Assembly (NCBI GenBank): GCA_017939025.1
Contig: JAGBAI010000152.1
Location: 1 to 19,324 of the forward strand
DNA from: Oscillospiraceae bacterium
GTDB taxonomy: Bacteria > Bacillota_A > Clostridia > Oscillospirales > Oscillospiraceae
Direction of reading: 5' to 3'
Length of the DNA: 19,324 nt
The notes under the pieces were generated by a model. The model had not been told where the DNA came from, ran no database searches, and was given only the letters and a program-made list of their open reading frames with translations. Positions 1,326-18,701 of the stretch are shown here, piece by piece. The first letter of the stretch is position 1, and every line of letters begins with the position of its first letter. A program made the position numbers and the translations under genes.

Positions 1326-1370
1326 ATCTCCACAAGATAATTTTTGCTCGCTGTCTGGAAAGGAGGAAAT

Positions 1371-3080
1371 TTGAGACAGCCGAACAACAAGAAAGGCCGT
1401 GATGTGACCGCTTTCCTGTATGAGCGTCTCTCCCGTGACGACAATATGGAAGGTGAAAGCTACAGCATCGGCAACCAGAAGAAACTACTCACCAAGGTAG
1501 CCAAGGAGAAGGGCTATACCAATCTTGTCCACTTCATTGATGACGGCATTTCCGGCGTGACTATGGACCGCCCAGGATTTGTCGATATGCTCCGTCAGCT
1601 GGAAGAAGGGCGGGCTGCTGCGGTATTCGTAAAAGACCTTTCCCGTTTGGGACGGAACTACATCGAAGTAGGCCGCCTGACAGAAGAATTTTTCCCAGAA
1701 TATGACATCCGTTTGGTTGCTGTTTCCGATAACATCGATACTGACGAAGGGGAAAATGAGCTGGCACCCATCCGTAACCTGTTTAACGAATGGTATGCTA
1801 GGGATATCAGCAAGAAACGGCGCATCAGCAATAAAATCAAGGGCAATTCCGGAGAACCAATGGGACAGCCTCCCTATGGATATATGAAGGACCCCAACAA
1901 TCCCAAGCACTGGATCATCGATGATGAAGCAGCGTTGATTGTAAAGCGTATTTTCAGCATGGCAATGGATGGTTTTGGAACAGAACAAATCGCAGCCCAG
2001 CTACAAAGGGACGATGTTCTGACCCCCCGTGCCTACTGGCTAAAGAAGGGTATCAAAAAGCCAGGAAAATCAAAGGAACAGCCGCCAACAAAATGGAATA
2101 GTTCTTCCGTTTGCAAGATTTTGTCCTTACAGGAATATTGCGGCGATATTCTGAACTTCAAAACCTATTCCAAATCCTACAAGAACAAAAAGCGGCTCAA
2201 AAATGACCGTGAGGATTGGGTAGTTTTTAAGAACGTCCACGAGCCAATCATTGACCGAGCTATATGGGAGCAGGTTCAGCAGAAAAGGGGAAAGGTTCGC
2301 AAACGCCTTAACCAAGCAGGGGAACACAATATGTTTTCCGGGATTTTAGTATGCGCTGACTGTGGCAGTAATCTCCACTACCACTTCAATCAGGGGAATC
2401 CAGAGATCAAATACTTCAACTGTTCCAATTATAAAGGCAATCGTGGTTCCTGCATCTCTACACATTACATTCGTGTGGATTTTCTGGAACAGATCGTACT
2501 TGGCGAAATTAAGCGGCTCACTAAATATGCTGTTCACTATGAGGATGATTTCCTGAAAGCTGTCATAGGTAGTTCCAAACAGAACACGGAGCTGGAACGC
2601 AAGCTGAAACAAAAAGAGCTTGCAGCACTGCAAGCCCGTGATGAAGAACTGGATGGATTGTTTGAACGCATCTATGAAGATAATCTTTCCGGCAAGCTGT
2701 CCGACGAACGCTTTTCCAAAATGTCTCGCCGGTATGAAGCAGAACAACAGGAGCTTTCCGAAAAGATGAATGTACTTCATTCTGAACTTGAGAGATTGAA
2801 CAATCAAACCATGACCACAGATATGTTCATCGCCATTGTTCGGAAATATACACGCGCCAAGAAGCTGACTCCTCGGATGCTGAACGAACTGATCGACAGA
2901 ATCGAAGTCCACCAGTCTGAGAAGGTCAACGGCGAATGGATTCAAAAATTGACGATCCACTACAACTGTGTCGGTGCTTTACCCATCCCAGATAATACAT
3001 CCTTACCTGTCCCTGATGTGACCGTAAATACCCGCCGGGGCGTGTATGTCACATACGAGCCTGCTCAAAATGAGCAATAA
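1371..3080 (+). CDS. Large serine recombinase (TnpX/TndX type)
   Basis: This site-specific recombinase excises and inserts the left element through a 5' phosphoserine intermediate. The resolvase catalytic domain carries the nucleophile in YERLSRDD (Ser21) and the VKDLSRLGRNYIEVG motif. A recombinase domain follows from about residue 163 (GQPPYGYMKDP). A zinc ribbon lies at about 327-365 (CADCGSNLHYH, NCSNYKGNRGSC). A charged coiled coil covers about 405-475. The predicted length is 569 residues, normal for the family. The TTG at 1371 is chosen because AGGAGG lies four bases upstream; a longer frame from TTG 1344 would place that ribosome site inside the gene. A CTGACA-N17-TATAAT promoter lies just upstream. 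A hairpin begins six bases after the stop. Confidence 0.9.
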   Translation: MRQPNNKKGRDVTAFLYERLSRDDNMEGESYSIGNQKKLLTKVAKEKGYTNLVHFIDDGISGVTMDRPGFVDMLRQLEEGRAAAVFVKDLSRLGRNYIEVGRLTEEFFPEYDIRLVAVSDNIDTDEGENELAPIRNLFNEWYARDISKKRRISNKIKGNSGEPMGQPPYGYMKDPNNPKHWIIDDEAALIVKRIFSMAMDGFGTEQIAAQLQRDDVLTPRAYWLKKGIKKPGKSKEQPPTKWNSSSVCKILSLQEYCGDILNFKTYSKSYKNKKRLKNDREDWVVFKNVHEPIIDRAIWEQVQQKRGKVRKRLNQAGEHNMFSGILVCADCGSNLHYHFNQGNPEIKYFNCSNYKGNRGSCISTHYIRVDFLEQIVLGEIKRLTKYAVHYEDDFLKAVIGSSKQNTELERKLKQKELAALQARDEELDGLFERIYEDNLSGKLSDERFSKMSRRYEAEQQELSEKMNVLHSELERLNNQTMTTDMFIAIVRKYTRAKKLTPRMLNELIDRIEVHQSEKVNGEWIQKLTIHYNCVGALPIPDNTSLPVPDVTVNTRRGVYVTYEPAQNEQ

Positions 3081-3122
3081 AAATAGGTGTTCTTACAGCT
3101 TATCAAATGCTGTAAGAACACC
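3081..3122 (-). terminator. Intrinsic terminator for minus-strand transcription
   Basis: There is a perfect 14-base-pair stem: GGTGTTCTTACAGC (3086-3099) and GCTGTAAGAACACC (3109-3122) around a 9-base loop. On the minus strand the hairpin is followed by TATTTTTATT. On the plus strand there is no T tract, so it chiefly terminates transcription coming from the operon and through the tRNA remnant. It may also give weak termination or 3'-end protection for the recombinase transcript. Confidence 0.8.
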
Positions 3123-3127
3123 CATTA

Positions 3128-3178
3128 TGGTGCGGGCAACAGGACTCGAACCTGCACGCTCTCGCAGTGGAACCTAAG
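3128..3178 (-). tRNA. tRNA-Leu(UAG) 3'-half remnant (integration scar)
   Basis: Read on the minus strand this is the 3' half of a class II leucine tRNA. It has an anticodon loop CTTAGGT with anticodon TAG, the anticodon-stem 3' strand TCCAC, a variable arm, a T arm GCAGGTTCGAGTCCTGT, the acceptor strand TGCCCGC, discriminator A and an encoded CCA. The 5' half is absent: bases upstream (3179 onward) show no D arm or acceptor strand. The fragment begins exactly at the anticodon loop, the crossover position of many tRNA-targeting tyrosine integrases. That makes it a probable displaced att repeat. A terminator follows directly, as for a native tRNA 3' end. It is not a functional gene. Confidence 0.85.
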
Positions 3179-3238
3179 GGTGATGTCACCACAGTGAAGG
3201 TTTTGGCTGCAGTTTCGGGAATGCCATTTCAAGACATA

Positions 3239-5518
3239 TTATTCAGAAAGATACAGATTCAGCGCCTGCAAGGCAGCCTCTGCTGCCTGTTCCGGGGTGA
3301 TTGCGCCGGTGCAGCAGTCATACATAGGCTCCATAACCATTTTGCGGATGGTGCGGTTGGTATTGGCGGGGGCAGTAAGGTTATCTACCCATCCCTTCAG
3401 CTGCTGGCGCTGGGCGGCGTTGGGCCACTGGGCGCTGTATGTGATCTCGTTGCCGTCAGCATCAGACGAACCAAACACGGAATCCGTGTAGCCCTCCTCC
3501 TGAATCTCACGGTCAAAGGTCACTTTGTTCACAGGGAAACCGGTGGACAGGGTTTCAGACTGTACCGCATCGCTGAGCATGAACGTGAGGAAGGTTTCTG
3601 CTGCCTGGGGATGCTCTGCAGTGGTCAGGATACCCATGATCCGCCGGGGCAGGAAGATATTGGAAACCTGACCGGAGAACGCAATGGTGGCATAGCCGTC
3701 ACCCAGAAATTCCGATTCGCCTGCCAGTGCATAGGACCATTGGGTCATGCCATCCAGGGTACCGGAGGACAGATAACTGATATTCTGGAAAATATAAGAT
3801 GCGCCGCCAAGGCCCGTATACTCACCGGGAACAAAATAATCATCCAGCTCTGCTTCGATTTGGGCAACCCAGTCCTGATTCTTCTGGCGGAAGGGCTCGT
3901 CCAGGGCATATAATTCCGTCATGGCAGCATAGAACTGGGCCAGCTTTTCCGCATCCAATGTGCCATCGGGGTTCATCCAGGCCGCGGAGCAGCTGTCATA
4001 ATAAATATCTGCCATCATAACAGGATGCATGGCATTGACGATCCGCTCCAAATCGGGATTTTCCGCTCGTGCCTGCTTTGTGGCAGCCACCAAAGAATCC
4101 AAATCGTGGATCTGGGAAACGATATGCTCCGCGCCGTACATGGCCGGGATCGCAAAGGTGGTGGGCACGGCACATACCTTGCCGTCTGCACCATAGCAGT
4201 GGGTGATCTGCTCCAGCAGGGGATCTGCCTGGGCAAGAACACCGCTCACATCTGCCAGCAGGCCCTTTTCCAGATAGGTATTCAGGTCGAAGCCATCCAG
4301 ACAAATCAGGTCTGGGCCGGTACCTGCCAGAATTTCCGTATTCAGTGTGCGCACTGCATCCGCTTCTGTGATGCCGTCTTCACCGGACAGGCCTACTTCC
4401 AATTCCACGGAAATATCCGGATTGGCTCTCTGGAAATGGTTGATTATCTGCGTCAGATCCTCATCCTGATACAAGCTGTAAATGCGTAGCTGGGTATCCG
4501 CCGCTACGGGAGCGGCCTCATCGAACGTAAAGTGGCATAATGTGGGTGTACTTCCCACGTTTGCCAGAACATAAAAGCTGCCGTCGTCGCTTCCTGTCAG
4601 GGCTACCGGAAGGCAGGCGGGATCGCCCAATGTCGAGCGGGAACCGCTGACCAGCTCCTCGGTGACGCTGCCCCCGGGGATGTAGCTGTACAAGCCGTCG
4701 AAGGTGGTGAAGAACAGGTAGCCGTCTTTGTTTTCCCAGAAGGTCATCCGTGGGGTGGTTCCTTCATTTTTTTCCAGAGAATCTTCCAGCTGGGCTTTCA
4801 ACACATCGGGAAGGGCTGTGGTTTCGCCATCTTTGTGATAGCTGGTGCTGGTCATGCCCATCATGTAAATGCTTTCGCCACCGCAGCCCATGCGGGAGAC
4901 ATTCGTGATCAATTCACTTACGTTTTCTCCAAATTCACCGGTGGTCAGGTCAATTTCCCGGACATCGCTGATGTAAACCTGGGCAATCAGGCGGCCATCT
5001 TCGGTGAAATCCGCATAGGGGATAAAGAAGCCCCACTCCGGCAGCAGATCGGAAAAGCCCAGGGGAAGCTCCCGGTAGCTTCCATCCGGGTCAATGACCC
5101 AAATGTGAGGCTGATGGGTGTCGTCGCCCAGGTCTTCAATGGTATCGCAGAAAACGGTGCCGTCCGGGGAGAGGGCAACCGATTCCACACTGCCGCTCAT
5201 CACGATCTCAGCAGGAAGAGAAAACGTTTCTTCCCAGGTGCATCTGTCTGCGCCGCTGGTGCAGATTAGAACATTACTGTTTTCTTCCTGCAATGCGACC
5301 CGGAGCCGCCCGTCGGAGAGCATAACCATGTCCATGGCGTACCTGCTGTCCGGCAATGCAATGGTCTTCTCCACATACCGGCCTGTTGCCCCGGTGCTGA
5401 TGGATGGCATCAGGACAATTTCTTCAGCCTCCACGTTTTTCTCTTTTCCGCAGCCTGCAGAGCAGCCAATGATTATGACCATAGCTAACAGCACGGATAA
5501 TACTTTTTTTATCTTCAT
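3239..5518 (-). CDS. Lipoprotein: beta-propeller-like region fused to a family 1 solute-binding domain
   Basis: The 759-residue product starts with a lipoprotein signal (MKIKKVLSVLLAMVIIIGCSAGC; lipidation at Cys19 or Cys23). Residues about 50-340 contain spaced blade-like motifs (LSDGRL, LSPDGTVF, TEDGRLI, KDGYLFF, SDDGSFYVL), suggesting a beta-propeller. From about residue 344 (LRIYSLYQDEDLTQIINHF) to the end it looks like an extracellular family 1 substrate-binding protein, with AGTGPDLICLDG and an SNIFLPRRIMGI segment. Usual family members are about 400-450 residues, so the extra N-terminal region is unusual. The ATG at 5518 follows AAGGAGG; an upstream in-frame ATG at 5563 lacks a ribosome site and precedes the predicted transcription start. 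It is last in the seven-gene operon and has its own promoter with the shared operator. It likely delivers a ligand to the two permeases or to the kinase. Confidence 0.8.
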   Translation of the reverse strand: MKIKKVLSVLLAMVIIIGCSAGCGKEKNVEAEEIVLMPSISTGATGRYVEKTIALPDSRYAMDMVMLSDGRLRVALQEENSNVLICTSGADRCTWEETFSLPAEIVMSGSVESVALSPDGTVFCDTIEDLGDDTHQPHIWVIDPDGSYRELPLGFSDLLPEWGFFIPYADFTEDGRLIAQVYISDVREIDLTTGEFGENVSELITNVSRMGCGGESIYMMGMTSTSYHKDGETTALPDVLKAQLEDSLEKNEGTTPRMTFWENKDGYLFFTTFDGLYSYIPGGSVTEELVSGSRSTLGDPACLPVALTGSDDGSFYVLANVGSTPTLCHFTFDEAAPVAADTQLRIYSLYQDEDLTQIINHFQRANPDISVELEVGLSGEDGITEADAVRTLNTEILAGTGPDLICLDGFDLNTYLEKGLLADVSGVLAQADPLLEQITHCYGADGKVCAVPTTFAIPAMYGAEHIVSQIHDLDSLVAATKQARAENPDLERIVNAMHPVMMADIYYDSCSAAWMNPDGTLDAEKLAQFYAAMTELYALDEPFRQKNQDWVAQIEAELDDYFVPGEYTGLGGASYIFQNISYLSSGTLDGMTQWSYALAGESEFLGDGYATIAFSGQVSNIFLPRRIMGILTTAEHPQAAETFLTFMLSDAVQSETLSTGFPVNKVTFDREIQEEGYTDSVFGSSDADGNEITYSAQWPNAAQRQQLKGWVDNLTAPANTNRTIRKMVMEPMYDCCTGAITPEQAAEAALQALNLYLSE

Positions 5519-5548
5519 GTTGTGTTCCTCCTTATTGAAGATGGAACC

Positions 5549-5583
5549 AGTGTAGTACTTCAATCTCTAATGAATCTCTAAAG
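5549..5583 (-). promoter_or_regulatory. Internal promoter with tandem response-regulator box for the lipoprotein gene
   Basis: On the minus strand TTTAGAGATTCATTAGAG spans 5582-5565: two TTAGAG half-sites with 11-base period. Ten bases later comes the -10 box TACACT (5554-5549). The ATG is 31 bases further on. No good -35 is present, as expected for an activator-dependent promoter. The box overlaps the last codons and stop of the kinase gene. The same arrangement occurs before the first operon gene at 11961-11996. Confidence 0.7.
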
Positions 5584-6825
5584 AATTGGCAATTCCACCA
5601 CAAATTCGGCACCGCCGATGGACGCATCCTGCACCCAAAGTTTGCCGTGGTGCTTCTTCACGATCTCTGCCGCAATGCTTAGACCCAGACCGAAATGTTC
5701 CCTTTCGGAACGGGATTTTTCGCTGCGGTAGAACCGTTCAAAGATCCTGCGTTTCTCCTCATCCGGTATGCCCGGGCCGGTATCGGATACCCGGATCTGC
5801 ACAGATTTTCGATGGACAATCAGTTCCAGTTCGATTTTTCCCGGCGCAGGTGTATGATTTCGGGCATTGTCCAGAAGAATGGAAACCACCTGTGTGATGC
5901 GGTCCTTGTCAAGCTGCATGGCTGGAATATCCTGCTCATAGAGGGACAGCGTCAGATTCAGCCCCTTTTCCTTTGCCAGGGGGGCATGGGCTTCGTACAC
6001 ATCCAGAAGCAGCATATCCAGCTCTACAGATTCCTTTTGCAGCTGCCATTGCTTGCTGTCCGAGCTTGCCAGGGTCAGCATATCCCCAACAAGGTGGGAC
6101 ATCCGGTTTCCCTCCCGGTGGATCATGTCGCAGAATTGAGAACGCTGCACCGGCTCTGCACGCTCCATGGCGGATGCGGCAGAGAGGATCGCTGCCAGAG
6201 GTGTCCTGAGTTCATGGGAAGCCGCCGCGATAAATTCCGTCTGGCGCTGCTGATTTTCCTGAATGGGGCGCAGCATTTTTCCGGTAAACAGCCAGGAGAA
6301 AATACCCAATACAACCACCGCTGCCAAAGATGCCAGGAATACCAGTATCCGCTGATTTTGGATGCCTTCTTCCATTTCCGCCAGAGCATACAGCAAAATC
6401 AGTTCCACCATGGAATCCTGTTTTTCGATTCGATAGACCGCGGCATAGTAGCCTTTCATAGAGAACATCCGATAGCCGGTCCTGCCAGACGGCAATTGAG
6501 CAAACGCTCTGGCCGTCTGAAACACAGCCGAAAGCTGCGCTTTTTCTTCAGAAAGGGTCATGGAAAACAGGGGCATTCCCGCGTCCAGAACGGAAATATG
6601 GATGTTGGGATCGGCCTCCATCTGCCGCAGCCAGGTATCGGAAATCTGAGACTGCACTTCCAAGTAAGAAGAAACCGCATGGGCGGTATCCGTGAAATTG
6701 CGAAGGGTCTGCTCCTTCGTGTTCTTCTCCGAGAGAGTCAGGCACAATACGATCATGCACAAAAGGATGGAGCCTGTGATGACGGTATTGAAGGCAGTTA
6801 ATTTCCACCGAAGTTTATCAAACAT
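5578..6825 (-). CDS. Sensor histidine kinase
   Basis: This 415-residue membrane kinase has TM1 at about residues 12-31, an extracytoplasmic sensor loop of about 125 residues, and TM2 at about 160-180. The H box is AASHELRTPLAA, with phospho-acceptor His204. The N box LLDNARNHT, G1 box DTGPGIP and G2 box GLGLSI all lie in a HATPase domain. Every catalytic motif is intact. The ATG at 6825 is chosen because GGAGG lies upstream at normal spacing and it overlaps the end of the response-regulator gene by eight bases (ATGTTTGA). An upstream extension in the same frame lies inside that gene. It should phosphorylate the adjacent regulator. Its signal is unknown; the neighbouring lipoprotein or permeases are candidate partners. 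Confidence 0.92.
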   Translation of the reverse strand: MFDKLRWKLTAFNTVITGSILLCMIVLCLTLSEKNTKEQTLRNFTDTAHAVSSYLEVQSQISDTWLRQMEADPNIHISVLDAGMPLFSMTLSEEKAQLSAVFQTARAFAQLPSGRTGYRMFSMKGYYAAVYRIEKQDSMVELILLYALAEMEEGIQNQRILVFLASLAAVVVLGIFSWLFTGKMLRPIQENQQRQTEFIAAASHELRTPLAAILSAASAMERAEPVQRSQFCDMIHREGNRMSHLVGDMLTLASSDSKQWQLQKESVELDMLLLDVYEAHAPLAKEKGLNLTLSLYEQDIPAMQLDKDRITQVVSILLDNARNHTPAPGKIELELIVHRKSVQIRVSDTGPGIPDEEKRRIFERFYRSEKSRSEREHFGLGLSIAAEIVKKHHGKLWVQDASIGGAEFVVELPIL

Positions 6826-7498
6826 GCTTTTCCTCCAGCCGGTAACCCACACCCCGGACGGTGGCAAGCTGCACAGAAGAGCCGACTTTCCGCAGGCTTC
6901 GCCGGAGGAAATAGGCGTAATTGTCCAGATTTCCGTCTTCCACTTCCGCATCCATCCCCCAGACCCGGAGTAAAATCGTTTCTCTGGGCAGGGTTTGTCC
7001 GTGATTTCGCAGGAGCAGTTCCAGTAGGTCTCCCAGCCGCTTGGACAGCACCGTTGTGTGTCCTTCCCGGGATAGGGTCAGGGTATGGGGTTCATATTGA
7101 ATGTCACCAAAGGCCAATTTTTCCGAAAGCTGCATCACCGCCGGGCGGCGCAGAACACTGCGGATCCGGGCCAGCAGTTCCTCAAAGGCGAAGGGTTTCA
7201 CAATATAATCGTCAGCGCCGCTGTTTAAGCCTGCGGTGCGGTCATGGAGCTGCCCCAAGGCTGTCAGAAAAATCACCGGGGTGTTGATATTTTCCCGGCG
7301 CAGAATCCTCAGGATCTCCATGCCATCCAGGCCGGGAAGCATCCGATCCAGCAAAATCAGATCATGGAGCCGCTCCCGGGCAAAATGCAGACCATCTTCC
7401 CCATTCATAGCCACGTCCACAGAAAACCCTTCCTGACGCAGCTGGAAAGGAATGGTCTGGCATAAGGTTTCATCATCTTCAATCAGCAGTATTCGCAT
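6818..7498 (-). CDS. OmpR/PhoB-family response regulator
   Basis: This 226-residue regulator has an N-terminal receiver domain with the acidic pocket IEDDE, phospho-acceptor Asp51 in LILLDRMLPGLDG, Thr in FLTALG and Lys in DDYIVKPF. The C-terminal winged helix includes LSKRLGDLLELLLRNHG and ends in TVRGVGYRLEE, the standard OmpR-type signature. It overlaps the preceding membrane-protein gene by 20 bases and the kinase gene by eight bases. A CGGAGG ribosome site precedes the ATG. OmpR-family proteins bind tandem direct repeats of 10-11 base period. Two such boxes occur in this operon (5565-5582 and 11977-11994), making it the likely activator of its own operon. Confidence 0.93.
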   Translation of the reverse strand: MRILLIEDDETLCQTIPFQLRQEGFSVDVAMNGEDGLHFARERLHDLILLDRMLPGLDGMEILRILRRENINTPVIFLTALGQLHDRTAGLNSGADDYIVKPFAFEELLARIRSVLRRPAVMQLSEKLAFGDIQYEPHTLTLSREGHTTVLSKRLGDLLELLLRNHGQTLPRETILLRVWGMDAEVEDGNLDNYAYFLRRSLRKVGSSVQLATVRGVGYRLEEKHV

Positions 7499-8444
7499 AG
7501 GTTTGCCTCCGGAATGTCCACAAAGTCAGCAAAGCAGCCGCTGTGGTAGATAGTATTGATTTTACCATATTCAGCAGCATTTGCAAATGCCGCTCTCCCA
7601 TGGGTGTCAGAAGTACAAGCTGAATATTCTCTTTTTGCGCTTCCAGCCAGTTTCCCCAAAAAGAAAAGTCAGACCAGCGGGAAGGGAACATATCCGGAAG
7701 GAAGAGGATCCTGCTGCCGAGAAAAACCAAAAGGTAAGGAGTAGTCAGGAAAAGGATTATCTGCCTGACTCTGCTCTGATTCTGTTTTCTCCCACGGAAA
7801 AAGATTCCCAAAATCAGGAAAAGTGGAGGTATCAAAAGGAAGTTATACACCGCCACCCACAGCGGGTAGAAGTCAACACATTCCCCTTGCAGTCCCCAGC
7901 GAAGAAGAAACTGCTGCACCGTCTGCTGTCCTGTTTCCGCTGTTACATCCAAAACACACCGGTTCAGAACCAGACCGTCTGATTCTTCGGCAACAGCTAT
8001 CCTGGTTGGTTGCGTGGCTGGGATTGTTCCCAAAACCCGGTATGGCCTGTCATCGTGCCACGCTGACTGCTCCGAGCAATCCGCTGTGCCAAACAGCCTT
8101 TGCGCAGTGGATTCGTCCAGAAAGCAGCCCTCCTGCCAGGTAAGTTTCTCTGCATCCAATAGCCCCAGATTGCCGGACAATAAAACTGCCGTGACTTCCG
8201 CAACACCGCCGGTTTCCTTGCAGGACACCCATTGGTTTTTCTCCTCGCCCCAAAAACAGAAACCTACGGAATCAGGAAGTGCTGCTTCCCGGGTGAAGAT
8301 ATCCTCTGCCCGGGCCGCACCGATGGGCTCTGATAACAGTAAGTAAGTACGGTTTGCGTCCTCCTTTGCAGACCGGCAGAAAAGAACAGCGCAGCCATAG
8401 AGGATAACCGCCGTCAAAATCAGTAATATTTTTCGGATACGCAT
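7479..8444 (-). CDS. FtsX/MacB-like membrane protein with no partner ATPase
   Basis: The 321-residue product has an N-terminal membrane segment (about residues 5-23), an extracytoplasmic region of about 165 residues, and three C-terminal membrane segments: LWVAVYNFLLIPPLFLILGI, then QIILFLTTPYLLVFLGSRI, then one near MVKSILSTTAAALLTLW. That is the topology of FtsX/MacB-type permeases. The extracytoplasmic part has the MacB-core-like run CFLDESTAQRLFGTADCS...DDRPYRVLGTIPA. At about 320 residues it is smaller than MacB permeases. The ATG at 8444 lies one base after the adaptor stop, with GGTGGA upstream. Being next to a HlyD-type adaptor supports an export or envelope-signalling pair, but no ATPase is encoded nearby. 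The family call rests on topology and weak motifs. Confidence 0.6.
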   Translation of the reverse strand: MRIRKILLILTAVILYGCAVLFCRSAKEDANRTYLLLSEPIGAARAEDIFTREAALPDSVGFCFWGEEKNQWVSCKETGGVAEVTAVLLSGNLGLLDAEKLTWQEGCFLDESTAQRLFGTADCSEQSAWHDDRPYRVLGTIPATQPTRIAVAEESDGLVLNRCVLDVTAETGQQTVQQFLLRWGLQGECVDFYPLWVAVYNFLLIPPLFLILGIFFRGRKQNQSRVRQIILFLTTPYLLVFLGSRILFLPDMFPSRWSDFSFWGNWLEAQKENIQLVLLTPMGERHLQMLLNMVKSILSTTAAALLTLWTFRRQTYANTAD

Positions 8445-8445
8445 A

Positions 8446-10209
8446 TTATTCCACCCGTACCCGGCTGCCATTGTCGATTTCTTTGTCAGAACCCACAATC
8501 ACCTGATCTTTTAACCCTACACTGCCTTCGGCAATCGCTGCCATGGCCGCATTCTGTTCCAGTACTGTCACACTGACCTTCCGAGCCTGCAATTCATCAC
8601 CCATAATGGACTCTGCCTGTTCCACTACCAGTACATAAGGCTGATTCCGGCTGTCCAGGCGCAGGGCCGACAGGGGCACACAGCAGAGATAGGGCTGGGA
8701 TTTTTTGGTAAAGCTCAAATGAAGATTGGCTCCCAATGCTAAATTATCAGCCGGGATCTGCACCGTCAGGCGGTAACCGCCACCCGGTTCCTCTGTGGTG
8801 GAGAAGGTGGTCACAGGCAGATCCTTATAGAGTTTTCCGGTGCCGGTTTGCAGCAGCACCTTGTCCCCAACGCCGATATACCGGCAGTCATCCTCGGTGG
8901 CAAGACCTGAGAATTTACAGCCCTGGCTCATGTCTGCCAGCAAAACGGCAGTGGTATCGGTGGTTTTCTCGCCGGTCTGCACATTGCATCTGGTGACGAT
9001 ACCATCTGTTGGTGAAAGGATCATTCCTCCCGCCTCTTTCAGTGCCTGCAGCTTTTCCAGTTCCAGCTTCATCTGGTCATAGGTGATCTGCCCAATCTGG
9101 GCAGAATTACTGGTACTGGCAGAGAGACTCGCGGAATTGACCGCCCGTCCATAGGAGGTTTTCGTGGATTCCAATGCTGCAACCGCATCATCATAAACCT
9201 CCTGCGCCTGTTCTATGGCATCCATCAGGTCTTTCTCGGATACTTCTGTACCACTGCCTTGCCTCTGATAGAATGCTTCCAGTTCTGTATCTGCATTGGA
9301 AGCCGCATGCTGCGCTGTCTGCACAGCAGTCTGGGCGGCGGAAAGTCGGTCCGCATAGCTTGCCCGGACAGAGACTTCGATTCCGTCCTTTTGTTCCTGT
9401 GTCAGTTCGGCAGCAATGATTGCAGGGGTATCCACCGTGACCGACTCCGTTGGGAAAGTGGTTTCTTCGGAAGCACCGGTTTCCCCGGACGGCTGTGTTT
9501 CTTCTGGGATTGCTGCCTGAGCAGCAGCCTCCTGCAGCTCTGCCTCTGCCTGTGAAATCGCATCCTGCACGGCCTGGTCAATTTCTCTTTGCAAACTTTC
9601 CAGAGCTGCTACAGCATTGTCATAATCTACTTTGGCTTCCTGACAGGTACGGAGCAAGGCTTCCTCTTCCGCTTTGTCATTGGATACGCCGTTATAGAAA
9701 TTTTCAAGGGCTGTCTTTGCCCGTTCCAAATCCCGCTGGGCACGGTCCACAGCCGTTTGAGCTTGGTCCACCGCATTGTCATAGTTTTCCTCTGCCTGAG
9801 CCTGTTGGTTTTCCCTCTGCTTTTGGGCGTTGGAATTTTGCGTCCAGGCATCCCACACAGAAAGCTGCTGCTTTTTCATATCCTGTTCCTGCCGTAAAAT
9901 CATTTCGTCCAGATAAGCAAGGTCAAGAACAAACAGAACATCTCCCTGCTTTACCTGCTGTCCTTCATTGACACAAACACTGCCGATCCGCAGACCACCG
10001 ATGGTGGTAACAGCCAGCTCCTGATTTTGAAGCACCTTGCCGGTAATCTGCACCGTATGATTGATGGTGCCGCCGGTGGGCATCTCCACGCTTACCACAG
10101 CCGTACCATGCTGATAAATGGCTCTGGAAAGAATGGTAAACAGGATCATGGCTGCGAAGAACAAACAGATCCATTTCCAAATCCGGCCTTTTTCTTTTTT
10201 CAGATACAT
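8446..10209 (-). CDS. HlyD/MacA-type membrane fusion (adaptor) protein
   Basis: This 587-residue protein has one N-terminal membrane anchor (about residues 12-30). The first half of a lipoyl domain follows (IGSVCVNEGQQVKQGDVLFV, about 74-93), then a very long coiled-coil hairpin (about 100-385), the second lipoyl half (ILSPTDGIVTRCNVQTGEKT), a beta-barrel region and a C-terminal membrane-proximal domain. A Glu/Ser/Thr/Pro-rich insert near residues 235-265 sits at the hairpin tip. The two helical arms resemble each other (ENFYNG/EAFYQR; YDNAVAALES/YDDAVAALES). A GGGAGG ribosome site precedes the ATG, one base after the preceding stop. Such adaptors pair with MacB-like permeases, so the FtsX-like gene that follows is the likely partner. 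Confidence 0.85.
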   Translation of the reverse strand: MYLKKEKGRIWKWICLFFAAMILFTILSRAIYQHGTAVVSVEMPTGGTINHTVQITGKVLQNQELAVTTIGGLRIGSVCVNEGQQVKQGDVLFVLDLAYLDEMILRQEQDMKKQQLSVWDAWTQNSNAQKQRENQQAQAEENYDNAVDQAQTAVDRAQRDLERAKTALENFYNGVSNDKAEEEALLRTCQEAKVDYDNAVAALESLQREIDQAVQDAISQAEAELQEAAAQAAIPEETQPSGETGASEETTFPTESVTVDTPAIIAAELTQEQKDGIEVSVRASYADRLSAAQTAVQTAQHAASNADTELEAFYQRQGSGTEVSEKDLMDAIEQAQEVYDDAVAALESTKTSYGRAVNSASLSASTSNSAQIGQITYDQMKLELEKLQALKEAGGMILSPTDGIVTRCNVQTGEKTTDTTAVLLADMSQGCKFSGLATEDDCRYIGVGDKVLLQTGTGKLYKDLPVTTFSTTEEPGGGYRLTVQIPADNLALGANLHLSFTKKSQPYLCCVPLSALRLDSRNQPYVLVVEQAESIMGDELQARKVSVTVLEQNAAMAAIAEGSVGLKDQVIVGSDKEIDNGSRVRVE

Positions 10210-10210
10210 A

Positions 10211-11059
10211 CTAATCCTTTCCTCCCGACATAGCGATTCCCTGCTCCAAATATTCCTGACATCCCAAAAACAGCAGCAGTGCCGGGATCAGCATCATCAG
10301 AGCTGCCGCAAAGCCCAGACCCATTTCCGCCATGCCGATTTCCGGCAGGAACAAGGACAGGGGCCAGAGGGATTTTGTTTTCAGATAGGTCATAGGCTGC
10401 TCGATCATATTCCAGGAATCCAGAAAAGTCAGAATACAGACGGACAGGATTCCTGGAGCGCCCATGGGAATGCCGATCTGGCAAAAAATCCGTAGTTCTC
10501 CCGCACCGTCCAGCCGGGCAGCTTCGATAATTTCCTGTGGAATTGCTTTGAAAAACCGATGCAGGATAAATACCGGGAAGGTAGAAAACACCGCCGGCAA
10601 AATCACCGCACCAAGGGTGTCCAGCAAGCCAAGATCATTCAGCACCAGATACTGCGGGAACATCAGCACCTGAAAAGGCATGAGCATTAACACAATATAG
10701 AGATTCAGAATCGCCTTTTTGGTCTTCAGCGGGAACCGAGCCAAGGCCCAGGCAGCAGACACATCCACCAGAAGCTGCCCTGACAGAATGAAAAGGGATA
10801 TTGTGACGGAGTTCCAGAACATGGTAAAAAACCCAGGGCTGTCCAGCAGGACTTCCACCAGGGATTTCAGGGTTGGTGCAGCAGGCAGCAGCGGCCAGTT
10901 CGCCATTCCCTCACTTCCTGCAAAAACAGGAGACAAATTCTGTTCCAATTCCCATTGGGCGGAAAAGGTTCCCGTGATGGCAACCCAGATGGGAAAACAA
11001 ATCAAAAATGTGAGAAACAGTATCATAGCGGCAAGCAGTATCTTTTTCATTTTCTGCAT
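10211..11059 (-). CDS. Carbohydrate-type ABC transporter permease (MalG-like)
   Basis: This inner-membrane permease of about 282 residues has six predicted hydrophobic segments. Its cytoplasmic EAA loop, EIIEAARLDGAGELRIFCQIGIP, is the site that docks the ABC ATPase. The family normally handles sugars or oligosaccharides with a partner permease and a binding lipoprotein. The chosen ATG at 11059 lies one base after the preceding stop; an alternative in-frame ATG at 11074 would overlap that gene, and neither has a strong ribosome site. It overlaps or abuts both neighbours, so it is co-translated. The loop is intact, so it should still accept an ATPase, perhaps a shared MsmK-like protein encoded elsewhere. 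Confidence 0.87.
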   Translation of the reverse strand: MQKMKKILLAAMILFLTFLICFPIWVAITGTFSAQWELEQNLSPVFAGSEGMANWPLLPAAPTLKSLVEVLLDSPGFFTMFWNSVTISLFILSGQLLVDVSAAWALARFPLKTKKAILNLYIVLMLMPFQVLMFPQYLVLNDLGLLDTLGAVILPAVFSTFPVFILHRFFKAIPQEIIEAARLDGAGELRIFCQIGIPMGAPGILSVCILTFLDSWNMIEQPMTYLKTKSLWPLSLFLPEIGMAEMGLGFAAALMMLIPALLLFLGCQEYLEQGIAMSGGKD

Positions 11060-11060
11060 A

Positions 11061-11927
11061 TCATTCTTCACCATCCCATGCTTTCCGTAAGGCTCCAATC
11101 AGAAGAAACACAACCGCAGAAGTCATAACAGAAGCGGCAGCAATCTTATCAAAATCCAGTTCCCGGAACCAGTTGTTGTACAGGTGCTGCAACAGGTACA
11201 TACTCTCGTGTGGATAGTCACCAGCTACCAGCCACGCCTCCCGGAATACCTTGAAGGAATTGAGTAATGACATGACCGTAATGGTATAAGCTGTTCCCCG
11301 CAGATTGGGAAGAGTGATGTGCAGGAATGTCTGCCACTGGTTCGCTCCATCCACCTGGGCCGCTTCATAGATACTTTCTGGGATTGCTGACAAGCCCGCA
11401 GTCCAGAGGATCATGGTGTATCCGAGATTTTTCCAAAGATAGCTGATCACCAGCATCCAGAAGGCTGCATTAGATCCCATCCAGTTGACTCCGGTGCCGC
11501 AAAATGTAAGCAAGGCACCATTGATCAGACCGTTTTCATGGAACAGCACTTTCCACACCAGTACCACCGATGCCGCTGGAACAGCCATGGGCATCAGAAA
11601 GATGCTGCGAAGGGTACTGCCAACCATGGGTATTGCGTATATCAACACAGCCAGTGCAAGCGAAATCGTAATCAGCAGCGGAATGCACACAGCAATGAAT
11701 TTACCCGTGTTCATAACAGCCAGTCGAAAAGCTGTGTTGTTCAAAACCACTGCATAATTTCGAATACCTACCCATTTTCCGCCAATAGCACTTTGAAAAG
11801 AGCGCAGCAGCACCTGCAGCATGGGAAGCAGAGAGAAATACAGGACACCCAGCAGGTTTGGCAGAAGGAAGGACCAGTAAATCCATATTTGTCTGCTAAA
11901 TGTACTGGAGATTTTTATCTTGCGCAT
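11061..11927 (-). CDS. Carbohydrate-type ABC transporter permease (MalF-like)
   Basis: This first gene of the operon encodes 288 residues with about six membrane segments (IYWSFLLPNLLGVLYFSLLP at the start). The EAA loop is SIYEAAQVDGANQWQTFLHITLP, typical of MalF/UgpA-type permeases. It lacks the long periplasmic loop of enteric MalF, as is usual in Firmicutes. The ATG at 11927 is chosen because AAAGGGA lies upstream. The in-frame ATG at 11951 would start at the predicted transcription start, leaving no leader. The promoter with the tandem operator lies at 11961-11996. It presumably forms a heterodimer with the next gene's product and receives substrate from the lipoprotein encoded at the end of the operon. 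Confidence 0.87.
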   Translation of the reverse strand: MRKIKISSTFSRQIWIYWSFLLPNLLGVLYFSLLPMLQVLLRSFQSAIGGKWVGIRNYAVVLNNTAFRLAVMNTGKFIAVCIPLLITISLALAVLIYAIPMVGSTLRSIFLMPMAVPAASVVLVWKVLFHENGLINGALLTFCGTGVNWMGSNAAFWMLVISYLWKNLGYTMILWTAGLSAIPESIYEAAQVDGANQWQTFLHITLPNLRGTAYTITVMSLLNSFKVFREAWLVAGDYPHESMYLLQHLYNNWFRELDFDKIAAASVMTSAVVFLLIGALRKAWDGEE

Positions 11928-11960: not shown

Positions 11961-11996
11961 AGTATATTGGTTCTGCCTCTAATCTATCTCTAAAAC
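11961..11996 (-). promoter_or_regulatory. Operon promoter with tandem response-regulator box
   Basis: On the minus strand TTTAGAGATAGATTAGAG spans 11994-11977. It is followed after exactly ten bases by the -10 box TATACT (11966-11961). The region 17 bases upstream of -10 (AGATAG) is a poor -35, so activation is expected. Sixteen of 18 bases in the box match the one before the lipoprotein gene, and the distance to -10 is identical. The predicted transcription start (about 11954) leaves a leader of about 27 bases before the ATG at 11927. Confidence 0.7.
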
Positions 11997-12046: not shown

Positions 12047-12868
12047 TTATAAACCTTTCAGAGCTGCCAACTTCGTGTCCACATAAGCCCTGCGCCAGAG
12101 GTGCAGAGGAGTTCCGTGGTACTTCTGCTTCAGCCGACGGAGAGCCGCATCCCTTGCCTTGTACACACCATCCACCGTCAGTTCCAACTCCAGTCCCAGC
12201 TGCTCCGGTGGCTTCTTCTCGCAGTCATACAGACCATAGTAGTGTCCCAGTATGTACCTGTCCTTGATTTTCAAGCTGTTGAACACCTCCGGCAGCAGGG
12301 AGAGCCAGATCTCATTCATTACGATATGCTCTACATTTTCTGCCGCAGGCATAAGCAATGCATTGTCGTTCTCAGAATTATCCTCTGCATACGCCAATGC
12401 AGCTTTCAGATCATCCAGAGAGATCGGATGGGTGTTATGCAGAAGAAGCTGTGCCGTTTCCTCCGGGGAGATCTTCAATTCCTGTGCAATGGTAGCAGCA
12501 TCGTAGTTGTACTCATAGTACATCTGCTGTACCCGGCGGATCTTTTCCATCTGGTGTTTGGAAACAGCCATGGTGCCGAGATTCTTTTCAAGCCACCGGC
12601 ACATAGCTCCCCGAATGAAGGGTAGGGTATAGGTCATCAGCTTTCCCTTTGCAGGATCGTAGCTGTTACCCACAATCACTTCCAGCAGTGCCAGATTGCC
12701 CTCACTAATCAAGTCCCCTATCTGATCATTCTGTTTTGCACTGTAAATGTGTGCAACCTCGCTGGCTGTTTTTCGGATGAGCCCTTCGTTCTGGATAAAA
12801 AGCTGATGCAGGGCATCCGTGTTGCTTGGATCGTTGCGGTATGTTTGAATCAGTTCTTCGTTGGTCAT
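12047..12868 (-). CDS. Sigma-70 family RNA polymerase sigma factor
   Basis: The 273-residue product has a region 2-like N-terminal half (LFIQNEGLIRKTASEVAH...IGDLISEGNLALLEVI...MTYTLPFIRGAMCRWLEKN), a region 3-like middle (VSKHQMEKIRRVQQ...ATIAQELKISPEETAQLL), and a region 4-like end (LKIKDRYILGHYYGL...LGLELELTVDGVYKARDAALRRLKQKY). It is compact and resembles sigma factors carried by Clostridia mobile elements rather than a housekeeping sigma. The ATG at 12868 follows GGAGGTGAG; an in-frame ATG at 12886 would place that site inside the gene. It lies 85 bases after the zinc-protein gene and probably shares its transcript. It may direct transcription of element genes, but its target promoters are unknown. 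Confidence 0.8.
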   Translation of the reverse strand: MTNEELIQTYRNDPSNTDALHQLFIQNEGLIRKTASEVAHIYSAKQNDQIGDLISEGNLALLEVIVGNSYDPAKGKLMTYTLPFIRGAMCRWLEKNLGTMAVSKHQMEKIRRVQQMYYEYNYDAATIAQELKISPEETAQLLLHNTHPISLDDLKAALAYAEDNSENDNALLMPAAENVEHIVMNEIWLSLLPEVFNSLKIKDRYILGHYYGLYDCEKKPPEQLGLELELTVDGVYKARDAALRRLKQKYHGTPLHLWRRAYVDTKLAALKGL

Positions 12869-12953
12869 GGGCTCACCTCCACCCATAGACTATCACATTA
12901 ACTGTCCAAAATACTTCCCATTATGTCGAGGAACAGGAGAATTTGCAATCTGT

Positions 12954-14261
12954 TCATTTCTTCTTTGGTCTGCCAACGCTGCCGGACTTTCGTTCAATGC
13001 CGCACAGTTGACATAAGTTTTTCGTTGCCAGAGACTTCTCGAAATCCTCGTTTCTGATATTGGGATTCTTCCGTGCATCAAAGTACAGTTCTTCTGCTTT
13101 GGTGTACAGGATATCCCGCTCCCCGGAAGTCAGATTCCCCCGGCTCACATCCTGATTCAGCCGCTGATAGCAGCGGAGGAGAGATTGCTTCATCGGATTA
13201 TCCTTAGCAGCTTCCTTCATTCCCGTATTGCGGTAACCGATCTGCCGACAGGTATAGCGGGGATCCTCCGGGTAGGGCATATCACAATACTTTGTGTGGT
13301 AGCCTTTTTCCAGCATGAAATACCGGCTGCAACACTGGCAGCGGCGAATGATATGTCCTGCACCCAGTCCCCGGTAGAAATCCATTTTTAAAAAGGTCTG
13401 TAAATTCTTCGCTTCATAGTATTCATAGATTTGAAATTCTCCGTCTGCATCCTCCTGGGGAACAAAGCGCATGGTCACGTTATCTGCATTGGTGTAGAAT
13501 CCTGTCCCCCGGAAAGGATTGGCGATCCACTTCTCTGCACTGGGATGGTTCAGAAAATCATGGAGTGCCGCCGCATAGTTGTTTGGATTCAGAGTATGCA
13601 GCTTGGAAAGAAACAGATTGATAAAGTTATGGATCGTCATATTGAAAGAGGCAATATCATCCAGGACATTCCTATACCCGGCACAAACCCGTTTATATAC
13701 CGCCAGCTTCAGTTCCAGATCACCGGGAACGATCAGGAGATTCTTTGCCTTCGGTGGAGGTGGTGCAGGAATTGGTGGCTGTGGTCTGCTGTACTGATAA
13801 CGCTCCCCAGTGCGTACGTCCGTGGCTTCCCAATATGTCTCGTCACCGAAAGCATCGGGGTTCTGCAAACACTCTTCGTAGAGATTCATTGCATTAAGAA
13901 TCTTGTAATCTTCTTCCGTAAGATCAAAGTCATGGGTCTTCAATTCTTCCAAATCAGAAAACAGAACCTGTGCTTCTTCCAGCACGGAAGGTTTCTGTTT
14001 CAAAAGCCGGAATAGACTTCTGGTGCAGAGTATAGCATCCAGTTCCAGGTAACAGTCATTGGCAGACTTCCAGTAAGATAACTCCAAAGTATCAGCATAG
14101 CGGGACAGTTCTTCCTCCGCCTGTTCCAGAAGCGTCTGCATTTTCTCATACTCCTGGGGTGTGATATTCAGAACCTCCGCTGTCAGCTTTCCCAGAGAAA
14201 AGGATTCACCACCAACCTCAATAGTCTTCCTGCCGATCATATAAAAGATGGATTCATACAT
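12954..14261 (-). CDS. Zinc-cluster protein with AT-hook-like tail, possibly DUF6076 family
   Basis: The 435-residue protein is mostly helical in its N-terminal 170 residues. It then has a Pro-rich linker (RPQPPIPAPPPPKAKN), a conserved-looking middle region, and a Cys cluster near residues 307-340 (RRCQCCSRYF, then YCDMPYPEDPRYTC). A second CxxC (NLCQLCG) lies near the end, followed by GSVGRPKKK, an AT-hook-like basic tail. From memory it resembles proteins labelled DUF6076 in Clostridia elements, but this is not certain. The ATG at 14261 is preferred over the one at 14285: GAAGGTGA lies upstream, and the predicted promoter (-10 at 14300-14305) would leave almost no leader for 14285. It probably binds DNA. 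It is divergent from the helicase gene. Confidence 0.65.
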   Translation of the reverse strand: MYESIFYMIGRKTIEVGGESFSLGKLTAEVLNITPQEYEKMQTLLEQAEEELSRYADTLELSYWKSANDCYLELDAILCTRSLFRLLKQKPSVLEEAQVLFSDLEELKTHDFDLTEEDYKILNAMNLYEECLQNPDAFGDETYWEATDVRTGERYQYSRPQPPIPAPPPPKAKNLLIVPGDLELKLAVYKRVCAGYRNVLDDIASFNMTIHNFINLFLSKLHTLNPNNYAAALHDFLNHPSAEKWIANPFRGTGFYTNADNVTMRFVPQEDADGEFQIYEYYEAKNLQTFLKMDFYRGLGAGHIIRRCQCCSRYFMLEKGYHTKYCDMPYPEDPRYTCRQIGYRNTGMKEAAKDNPMKQSLLRCYQRLNQDVSRGNLTSGERDILYTKAEELYFDARKNPNIRNEDFEKSLATKNLCQLCGIERKSGSVGRPKKK

Positions 14262-14297
14262 GACGGTCACCTTCTTTTTTGTCATTGGAATGATTTT

Positions 14298-14328
14298 TAT
14301 ATGTAAATGACATATATTATTTTATCAA
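14298..14328 (-). promoter_or_regulatory. Promoter and palindromic operator in the divergent region
   Basis: On the minus strand TTGATA (14328-14323) and TACATA (14305-14300) are separated by 17 bases. A perfect inverted repeat, TATATGT-N5-ACATATA (14298-14316), covers the -10 box and part of the spacer, as a repressor or autoregulator site would. A second, imperfect inverted repeat (AAGTAGGAGTAC against GTACTTACTT) lies between about 14345 and 14376, before the helicase gene. Confidence 0.55.
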
Positions 14329-14400
14329 ATCCCGTCCACAATTCAAGTAGGAGTACAAAATCAGCTGTACTTACTTTTGAATCTGTAAAGGAGAATGATA

Positions 14401-16164
14401 TTGACCGAATCGAAAACTGAAAGCCGATCAACCTATGCGCCCAGCTACAAAGTCATTGACCACTGTCTGCTGGAAACCAAAAACAGCAAACAGGGACCCT
14501 ATGATAAAAAGCTGTGTAACTTCATGCCCTGGATCACCAGCGAGGTGACACTGGATGACGGGGCACAGACCACCACCAGGATCCGTCTGAGAGGAATTCA
14601 TCAGAGCGGACGGGAACTGCCAGAGATTGAAATTCCCGCTGACGAGCTGGGAAACTTCAACTGGGTGGCAAAACACTGGGGCATCAACTGCATTCTGGAA
14701 GTGGGACAGAATGTGAAAGACAGTCTCCGCTATGCCATCCAGACCACCGCTGAGAAAGCTGACCATCAAACGGTGTATGCAGTGACCGGGTGGAAGAAGA
14801 TCGCTGGTGAGTGGCAATTCCTCATGCCGGGAGCAGAGAAATTAACGGTGCATCTTCCCGGAAAGATGCAGGGCTACCGGATGGAGCAGGAATATGATTA
14901 TCTGGATGTGCAGGTTGTGTCCTGCCTGATGCAGGATTCCTTTGCACCGGATGAAATCCTGCTTCCTCTGCTGGCATTTACTTTCCTGACACCGCTGAAT
15001 CATTTCCTGAAGCTGGCAGGCTGCGAACCCAAGTTCGTATTGTTCCTCGTAGGCAAGACCGGCTCCCGGAAAAGTACCTTAGCAGCTCTGTTCCTGTCCT
15101 TCTTCGGAAGGTTCACAGGAACGGAGCTGCCTTTGTCATTTCGGGATACCACCAACAGCATCCTGCATAACGCATTCACACTGAAAGATGTGCTGACCTG
15201 CATCGATGACTTCCATCCCGCAGGCCGTCAGGAGGAACAAAAGCTCACCGCAACCGCGCAGAGCATCATGCGTGCCTACGGCGACCGCACAGGCAAAGGT
15301 CGTCTCCGTGCTGATTCCACTCCCATGGATGCACGACCACCCCAGGGCAATGCTATCATCACCGCAGAGTTCCCACCGGACATTGGGGAAAGCGGTACCG
15401 CCAGATACTTTGCGCTGGAACTGAAAAATGGTGACATTGATCTGGAATATTTGACTTCTCTCCAGCGGGAGACGGAGAGAGGTACATTGCAAAGATGCAT
15501 GTTCGCTTACATCCAATGGTTGAAAGAACGCTTTCTGGTGTCGGACGATACAGCGAAGGAATTTGTTTCTCTTTTGAAAAGCATGTTTGAAGCCAGACGG
15601 AATGACTTTCGGGAAAGTGGAATCCAATGTCATGGTCGTGTTCCGGAGGCGGTTGCTCATCTGCGAATCGGGATGGATATGTTTTTGCTCTTTCTGAAAG
15701 ACAATGGAAACATCCCGGAGGATTATATGAAATACATAGCAAAGCGTTTCAAGGATATCCTCTATGATCTTGCCCAGAAACAGGCAGACAACATTGTGCA
15801 GGACAAGCCTACACACAAATTCATCCGAAAGCTCTATGCACTGATAGAAAGCAACCAATGCAGTTTGCTGCCAAGAAATCAGATCCATGATTTTGTTCCA
15901 AACAACTGCATCGGCTATGAAGATGATACGCTTCTCTATCTGAATAGTGACCTGGCGCACAGGGCGGTGAAGAAGCTGTGCGAGGATCAGGGAGAAGCAT
16001 TCACCATCTCCTGCAAATCACTGTTAAAACAACTGGCGGAGGAAGATCTTATTTTTACAAGTGCAGGACAGAACACAAGATCGGTTCGCATCAACGGAAA
16101 GTCAAAGCGTCTGCTGTGTCTCTACCGGGAGAAAGCGCAGCTCATCGCAGACGGTGTATTGTGA
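14401..16164 (+). CDS. P-loop ATPase, DUF927-like replicative helicase
   Basis: This 587-residue protein has a clear Walker A motif, GKTGSRKST (about residues 218-226), a Walker B-like TCIDDFH (about 267-273), and a conserved ARYFALEL strand near 345. The region before the P-loop (YAVTGWKKIAGEWQFLMPG) and the helicase core match DUF927-type helicase/primase-associated proteins of mobile elements. It probably supports element replication or unwinding after excision or transfer. The TTG at 14401 is chosen: AAAGGAG lies seven bases upstream, whereas the ATG at 14395 is one base from it. The gene is divergent from the zinc-protein gene. A 425-base noncoding stretch follows. Confidence 0.75.
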   Translation: MTESKTESRSTYAPSYKVIDHCLLETKNSKQGPYDKKLCNFMPWITSEVTLDDGAQTTTRIRLRGIHQSGRELPEIEIPADELGNFNWVAKHWGINCILEVGQNVKDSLRYAIQTTAEKADHQTVYAVTGWKKIAGEWQFLMPGAEKLTVHLPGKMQGYRMEQEYDYLDVQVVSCLMQDSFAPDEILLPLLAFTFLTPLNHFLKLAGCEPKFVLFLVGKTGSRKSTLAALFLSFFGRFTGTELPLSFRDTTNSILHNAFTLKDVLTCIDDFHPAGRQEEQKLTATAQSIMRAYGDRTGKGRLRADSTPMDARPPQGNAIITAEFPPDIGESGTARYFALELKNGDIDLEYLTSLQRETERGTLQRCMFAYIQWLKERFLVSDDTAKEFVSLLKSMFEARRNDFRESGIQCHGRVPEAVAHLRIGMDMFLLFLKDNGNIPEDYMKYIAKRFKDILYDLAQKQADNIVQDKPTHKFIRKLYALIESNQCSLLPRNQIHDFVPNNCIGYEDDTLLYLNSDLAHRAVKKLCEDQGEAFTISCKSLLKQLAEEDLIFTSAGQNTRSVRINGKSKRLLCLYREKAQLIADGVL

Positions 16165-16589
16165 TTTTTATGTGTGGCAGGCGTTACGCAATTCCAAAAT
16201 CCGTTGCGGTGCTAGGAAAAACTTGTGGCAGAGTATCCGTCGCAGAAGAGCAGCGCAGGTGTTGCATGACACTGAAAAACTGTTTTCTATCTCTGCTGTG
16301 ACACTGCAAAAGTCACTGGAAGCAAATTTCAAAAAGCATTGCGGTTCTAGCGGAAACGGAATCTGTAGCTGGAAACACACATAAAAATCAGCGCCTATCG
16401 CAACAAACATACACCGCTGTTGCGGCACTATGGGAAGTCCATGCAAAATGTGCCCCGCTGTCAGCGATTTGCGGGGCTTTCGTAAAAGGATAGGGTTGGG
16501 ATACCATTCCCTAAAATTAAGCGGCGTTTGGGCGCAGGAAACCGTCAAAACCGCCCCGTAAAACGACCCAAGGCAGAAGGAGGTGAGAA
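16165..16589 (+). other. 425-base noncoding region with repeats and hairpins
   Basis: I see no credible coding frame here. It contains three direct copies of RTTGCGGNNCTA (16203-16214, 16338-16349, 16419-16430). One inverted CGCAACA at 16399-16405 pairs with TGTTGCG at 16418-16424. A GC hairpin (16452-16477) has a weak T run. A small hairpin, TTGGGA/TCCCTAA, lies at 16496-16514. Its place between a helicase and mobilization genes suggests a replication, transfer or regulatory region. Confidence 0.5.
16452..16481 (+). terminator. Possible intrinsic terminator
   Basis: GCCCCGC (16452-16458) pairs perfectly with GCGGGGC (16471-16477), followed by TTTCGT. The T run is short, so it may be a weak terminator or a structural element of the transfer region. 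Confidence 0.4.
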
Positions 16590-16751: not shown

Positions 16752-16757
16752 GAAATT

Positions 16758-16807
16758 CCCGTCGCTCCGACGACGGGGCAAGCAGAGCGCCTGGCTGTCT
16801 GCCTGCC
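16758..16807 (+). other. Paired hairpins, candidate oriT
   Basis: CCCGTCG (16758-16764) pairs perfectly with CGACGGG (16771-16777). Next to it GGCAAGCAGA (16777-16786) pairs with TCTGCCTGCC (16798-16807) with one mismatch. A GC-rich unpaired stretch, CCCCCGCCCCTAAAGGGAG, follows. Adjacent inverted repeats directly upstream of a MobC/relaxase pair are the usual form of an origin of transfer. The nic site is not assigned. Confidence 0.45.
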
Positions 16808-18672: not shown

Positions 18673-18701
18673 TCTGCTGCCGCAATTATTTTATGGAGGT
18701 A

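Follow-up and report, generated by a model that had tools for sequence, protein, structure and literature searches.

Bce-type modules combine a BceA ATPase, a large BceB permease and a histidine kinase that lacks an outer domain. Together with the YknWXYZ and MacAB-like pumps (PMC5985334; structures 5f9q and 5xu1), the MsmX-dependent type I (CUT1) importers (PMC7658222; Clo1313_2554 in PMC9601137) and transporter C of Clostridium thermocellum (PMC9601137), they are the described systems closest to the operon analyzed here; what is said of these papers, and of PMC10731318 below, refers to excerpts of their text. The operon lies in a 19,324-nucleotide stretch of DNA from an Oscillospiraceae bacterium (assembly GCA_017939025.1, contig JAGBAI010000152.1), hereafter the window. 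It is a row of seven minus-strand genes running from 11927 to 3239: two permeases (PF and PG), a membrane adaptor (MFP), an "FtsX-like" protein (P4), a response regulator (RR), a sensor histidine kinase (HK) and a solute-binding protein (SBP). Sharing of an ATPase is already known for importers of this kind (PMC7658222, PMC9601137) and was shown for transporter B of C. thermocellum (PMC9601137), so an importer without its own ATP-binding cassette (ABC) ATPase is ordinary. As far as the titles found show, the new part is a grafted MacAB-like pair that also lacks an ATPase, with a private regulon; ABC parts are thereby recombined across two fold classes.

The cassette resembles each of these systems in part. 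Like Bce-type modules (PMC5985334), it places a MacB-type subunit beside a two-component system (TCS), but it has no BceA ATPase, P4 is only 321 aa long with four membrane helices, and HK has two membrane helices and an outer domain of ~125 aa (judged by eye); the feature set of Bce-type detoxification was not found in the cassette. The fold of P4 and the adaptor partner are common to the cassette and the YknWXYZ and MacAB-like pumps, whereas the cassette has no cognate ATPase, lacks the coupling motif and is tied to an importer. MsmX-dependent CUT1 importers have the same MalF/MalG pair, SBP lipoprotein and ATPase-less operon, and relatives of the cassette likewise have an MsmX-type gene elsewhere in the genome. 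In contrast to those importers, the cassette adds MFP, P4, a propeller, an OmpR-type TCS and an operator, and no conserved sugar enzymes are found nearby.

The seven-gene cassette is a real, conserved and common unit of gut Clostridia. P4, the gene without a family, was used as the search query and has 188 relatives at an E value of ≤0.001. MFP has 462 related proteins in a protein search and gave no matches as a probe of genome contigs. A 36-row P4 alignment run against genome contigs yielded 91 relatives, the best 80 of which define loci L001 to L080. A second search took a 94-row P4 alignment through 200 genomes belonging to a single family and scored no more than 10 candidates in each; 76 genomes had a match (E ≤ 0.001), many of them weak and over ~40 residues, and 27 had a strong one (E ≤ 1e-28). 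Four strong loci were already in the set, and 31 further loci brought the total to 111. All seven genes occur together in 64 of these 111 loci, PF, PG, MFP, P4 and SBP in 91, and MFP in 108; none of the seven was called in one locus (L072), where P4 is cut by the contig end. The counts of 64, 91 and 108 were unchanged under score floors that exclude unrelated kinases and regulators. Missing genes are partly due to truncation, because both locus sets were picked via P4 and short contigs are frequent. Sampling across the class gave a P4 match (E ≤ 1e-10) in 6 of 391 genomes, and all five new loci (L178 to L182) hold PF, PG, MFP and P4 together. Neighborhoods conserved to this extent show that the arrangement is not a chance one. 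No eighth neighbor is conserved, the next commonest cluster being present in 7 of 80 loci.

Gene order varies among relatives. Window-type loci read PF-PG-MFP-P4-RR-HK-SBP, many Lachnospiraceae-type loci have a divergent TCS followed by SBP-PF-PG-MFP-P4, and four loci (L166, L167, L179, and L180) read SBP-MFP-P4-PF-PG. Distance correlations among the seven proteins were 0.55 to 0.86 (59 loci), as expected from joint inheritance, although species phylogeny by itself would fit as well. One locus (L147:8286-12585) holds only P4, MFP and PG, with unrelated genes after PG and PF and SBP not found, and is possibly a decayed copy. Another (L044:7359-10966) has HK, MFP and P4 without permeases or SBP, beside two full ABC exporters.

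P4 and MFP appear to be a MacAB-like pair that has lost its own ATPase. P4 has the MacB/YknZ fold, with one transmembrane helix (TM), an outer domain and three further TMs. MacB_PCD was matched in 39 of 94 P4 relatives, and the FtsX domain (PF02687) was absent among the best 25 of 30 families for these 94. The coupling motif between TM2 and TM3 was found in none of 107 P4 proteins; the proteins of L120 and L125 (29 to 30 bits to the P4 profile) are true FtsX-family members and were excluded from the 107. As a control, the motif was detected in 16 of 30 real FtsX-family proteins, including 9 of the 10 shorter than 470 aa; because it is a weak test alone, it was used only alongside Pfam, fold and conservation. 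Distant P4 proteins of L183, L186 and L189 (29 to 31 bits) have MacB_PCD, no FtsX domain and no motif, and none of seven distant P4 proteins had the motif. Among eight stretches of P4, the inner TM2-TM3 loop was the least conserved (1.08 bits) and the outer TM3-TM4 loop the most conserved (2.40 bits). MFP has no PDB relative by sequence. The usual arrangement of ATPase, YknZ-like subunit and adaptor exists as a separate operon (L120 in genome G001) in the same genome as L002. An ABC ATPase stands inside the gene row in 3 of 111 loci, as a C39 exporter in L160 and as a MalK-type ATPase in L166 and L167. The MacB/YknZ fold and the adaptor matches bear out the FtsX/MacB-like and HlyD-like calls made earlier from the sequence alone, and this pair is truly without an ATPase.

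PF, PG and SBP, on the other hand, probably form a type I (CUT1) importer that uses a shared MsmX-type ATPase. A relaxed pattern of the EAA docking loop was matched by 65 of 67 PF and 66 of 69 PG proteins, both permeases of the window included, and a strict pattern by 52 of 67 and 45 of 69. In each of 18 relative genomes, which have between 2 and 58 matches to PF, an OB_MalK match was found within an ABC ATPase gene. No PF- or PG-like gene occurred in the 11 to 14 kb around this ATPase in 13 genomes; in a fourteenth (L103), the only such match nearby was to PG, scored 20 bits and lay next to another ABC gene, and in the remaining 4 a PF- or PG-like gene was near. One relative's ATPase matched MsmX (6yir) at 8.5e-136. 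Four MsmX residues were mutated in a published study (PMC7658222), and at least three of them are kept in the ATPase of 16 of 18 genomes, with all four kept in 9. In L166 and L167, the MalK-type ATPase gene begins 32 and 16 bp after PG. The EAA loops, OB_MalK in all 18 genomes and the MalK genes of L166 and L167 together argue for a shared ATPase for the importer half, and such sharing would explain why operons of this kind carry no ATPase. A transporter that borrows shared ATPases was one of two suggestions in the original prediction, and for the MalF/MalG pair it is well supported. An adjacent ATPase always present in homologous loci and lost here would have told against the predicted system; of the 111 loci, 2 have a neighboring ATPase of the MalK type.

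The cassette also has a regulatory site of its own. The operator TTAGAG-N5-TTAGAG is new in this analysis, and its 11-bp direct repeat suits an OmpR/PhoB-type regulator. Its two matches in the window are both at promoters, against 0.07 expected with up to 1 mismatch, and the operator is also present upstream of PF in relatives L001 to L011 and in 49 of 189 loci. With up to 1 mismatch allowed, the PF or SBP promoter carried the operator in 51 of 67 loci that have both HK and RR, in 5 of 7 with one of them and in 10 of 36 with neither; among loci with neither and at least 3.4 kb upstream of SBP, it was found in 2 of 7. Elsewhere in 1.8 Mb of relative loci there were 14 off-promoter sites, compared with 49, 3 and 0 matches for three control patterns. 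The 18 genomes had 35 exact matches, of which 26 lie close to genes of the cassette and 9 do not (tallied by position), compared with 17 for the reversed pattern. The control values of 49 and 17 are inflated, because GAGATT repeats partly overlap true operators. From the sites near promoters and the few elsewhere, RR seems to regulate mainly this cassette; RR would be the protein that binds the predicted operator, and the conservation of the site makes the regulator testable.

Within the operon (Table 1), with likely starts read from the sequence, single bases separate PF from PG, PG from MFP and MFP from P4; P4 and RR overlap by 20 bases and RR and HK by 8, and 59 bases separate HK from SBP. 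The gene identities, their order and the missing ATPase all stood up in Pfam/NCBIfam scans and on reading of the sequence, as did the tight coupling of genes everywhere except before SBP. That the seven genes are expressed as one unit holds only in part, because SBP is preceded by a ribosome site of its own and by a second copy of the operator. SBP has a lipobox-like Cys (by eye), followed by a beta-rich, propeller-like domain (~45-337) and a solute-binding domain (~342-759), whose fold, like that of P4, was shown computationally. In Pfam/NCBIfam, no operon protein matched an ABC ATPase and P4 as a single sequence had no match; Rfam gave no match in the window.

Table 1. Genes and operator sites of the cassette (window positions).
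Feature	Assignment	Position	Strand	Matches and remarks
PF	MalF/UgpA-type permease	11061..11927	−	BPD_transp_1, 6.9e-14; open reading frame (ORF) listed from 11951; EAA loop
PG	MalG/UgpE-type permease	10211..11059	−	BPD_transp_1, 1.5e-13; ORF listed from 11098; EAA loop
MFP	HlyD/MacA-type membrane adaptor	8446..10209	−	Biotin_lipoyl_2 and RND_mfp (TIGR01730, E 5.6e-19), both under cut-off
P4	Apparent type VII transmembrane subunit of the MacB/YknZ kind, 321 aa, no ATPase	7479..8444	−	ORF listed from 8498
RR	OmpR/PhoB-type response regulator	6818..7498	−	Pfam/NCBIfam
HK	Sensor histidine kinase	5578..6825	−	HisKA and HATPase_c; ORF listed from 6951
SBP	Lipoprotein	3239..5518	−	SBP_bac_1/8 match; ORF listed from 5563
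Operator	TTAGAG-N5-TTAGAG, ahead of first gene PF	11977..11993	−	Pattern match
Operator	TTAGAG-N5-TTAGAG, ahead of SBP	5565..5581	−	Pattern match

Neighboring genes offer hints of a ligand. A VanY D,D-carboxypeptidase gene follows SBP by 4 to 6 bp in L004, L005, L006 and L010. These are 4 of the 8 window-type loci that extend beyond SBP; in the other four, no member of the VanY protein cluster is present. In L170, BlaI and M56 (BlaR1-type) genes stand directly behind P4, and HK and RR were not found there. A C39 peptide exporter lies between SBP and PF in L160, and a related C39-type exporter lies upstream in L157. In genome G239, a histidine kinase, a LuxR-type regulator, one more gene, SBP, PF, PG, MFP and P4 stand directly behind a CcpM/TIGR04066/TIGR04069 peptide cluster of the sactipeptide type that contains Cys-rich, precursor-like ORFs; the bacteriocin SacP23 comes from a cluster that combines TIGR04066, TIGR04068 and TIGR04069 (PMC10731318). 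SBPs related to CbpC, the binding protein of transporter C, also occur in L184, L185, L187 and L188, beside sactipeptide-type maturation genes (in L187, without permeases) or beside a subtilisin-like protease and an ABC gene (L188). The best guess for the cargo is a bacteriocin-type peptide or the cell wall, and the task of the cassette at the cell surface is probably to sense or remove a ligand, perhaps a peptide.

We tentatively propose that the seven genes encode a single envelope device, made of two halves derived from transporters and a regulator of its own, whose ligand is most likely an envelope-active peptide or cell-wall fragment and not a food sugar. SBP, PF and PG would form a type I (CUT1) importer that draws its power in trans from the MsmX/MalK-type ATPase shared in the cell, and transport would presumably run in the importer's direction. 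P4, after loss of its ATPase and coupling motif, would form with MFP a passive extracytoplasmic platform in physical contact with the importer, which would capture a membrane- or wall-bound ligand and present it to SBP. HK would sense the ligand, most likely a bacteriocin-like peptide or a wall fragment, and RR would bind the operator ahead of PF and SBP and induce mainly this cassette.

Several observations weigh against this proposal. Each of the ligand hints was seen in few loci (VanY in 4, a peptide exporter within the row in 1, a complete sactipeptide cluster in 1, and BlaI/BlaR1-type genes in 1), and because of this our confidence in the whole falls short of even. The MsmX-type ATPase counts cover 18 relative genomes, and that of the window is not among them. 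The coupling-motif control was imperfect (16 of 30 positive), and in some P4 relatives the TM2-TM3 loop is longer, so that an ATPase might still dock there. In L155, two ABC exporters encoded on the strand of SBP precede it by 113 bp; like those near L044, they may be chance neighbors. In the distant relative L182, genes for an ABC ATPase and a DUF6449 protein and a GntR gene stand immediately before PF. The operator is absent from 16 of 67 loci with a TCS, and 3 of 18 genomes have no exact match. Finally, most of the proteins of solved structure that are closest to the SBP domain bind sugars. As a separate observation on L182 (12803-16246), its GntR, ABC ATPase and DUF6449 genes precede a PF-PG-MFP-P4-SBP row and resemble ytr-type operons.

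Those sugar-binding relatives also favor an ordinary oligosaccharide importer with a shared ATPase, with MFP and P4 as helper proteins for catching long glycans at the wall. The CUT1 permeases and the MsmX-type ATPase would suit it, and the propeller-like domain could bind glycan. However, no sugar enzyme is conserved nearby, because no gene beyond the seven is, and we know of no sugar importer with a MacA/MacB-like pair. The best solved relative of the SBP domain, CbpC (structure 7x0o), bears on both sides: earlier work that PMC9601137 cites did report that CbpC binds sugar, but PMC9601137 itself describes a blocked pocket and normal growth of a transporter C mutant on three carbon sources, glucose, cellobiose and Avicel. 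An oligosaccharide importer is rather unlikely on this evidence, and by analogy with CbpC some "sugar" SBPs of Clostridia may not be sugar binders.

The CbpC of transporter C was matched in genome G556 (100% identical; species inferred to be C. thermocellum). Its locus, L183, is a row of SBP, another gene, PF, PG, MFP in two pieces and P4, and no gene of this row encodes an ABC ATPase, so that the CbpC-related SBP clusters with the same partners as in the window. Unlike the window, CbpC has no propeller, no OmpR-type TCS was found in L183, and the P4 match is just 31 bits, with MacB_PCD and neither FtsX domain nor coupling motif. The Fig. 1 legend of PMC9601137 names an acrA gene among its clusters, which we infer belongs to that of CbpC. 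The two MFP pieces are an adaptor in two overlapping frames (L183:8633-9986). The original prediction knew of no described system with this gene set, which was nearly right: such an operon is named in no title among the literature found, which covered part of the matching titles, and transporter C appears to be a published relative, its function unsolved in print as far as the excerpts of PMC9601137 go. Transporter C, unexplained so far, is thus placed in a wider family.

It is also conceivable, if unlikely, that the two ABC folds work as one machine on one borrowed ATPase, the importer cycle also moving the grafted MacA/MacB-type pair, so that gut Clostridia could both sense and clear bacteriocin-like peptides or wall fragments under the control of a dedicated TCS and its private operator. 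A pure sensor, the other suggestion of the original prediction, would use the transporter parts as receptors that control HK, without transport. The TCS and operator that belong to the cassette, operator matches elsewhere that do not exceed controls, P4 without an ATPase and the exchange of regulators for BlaI/M56 in L170 are in line with a sensor, but the EAA loops are kept, a MalK-type ATPase lies within the operon in L166 and L167, HK has its own outer domain (by eye), and in just one case (L044) do MFP and P4 occur without permeases on a long contig, all of which makes it quite improbable. Most improbable is an exporter or immunity pump in which MFP and P4 expel a peptide, energized via PF/PG and the shared ATPase: Gram-positive MacB-type pairs with adaptors do protect against peptides (PMC5985334), a peptide exporter gene lies inside L160 and a sactipeptide-type cluster adjoins the system in G239, but SBP and MalF/MalG are import parts and P4 lacks the coupling element of MacB-type exporters.

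The operon sits between two mobile elements. The left element has a large serine recombinase gene (1344-3080), and the second (12047-19324) encodes a sigma-like gene, DUF6076, an ATPase, NikA/MobC, a MobA relaxase and a resolvase; a protein at 14395-16164 has a weak DUF927 match and no more. That the operon is mobile cargo was considered: despite this position, P4 relatives were absent from viral contigs, plasmids and phages and the region had no near plasmid match, so cargo status is not shown. Between SBP and the recombinase gene, the minus strand at 3120-3180 carries a tRNA 3'-end-like sequence ending in CCA, at which ARAGORN called no whole tRNA, followed by an 18-nt inverted repeat (3082-3126); together they look like an attachment site of the left element. 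In the window, a mobile element occupies the place where VanY stands in L004, L005, L006 and L010.

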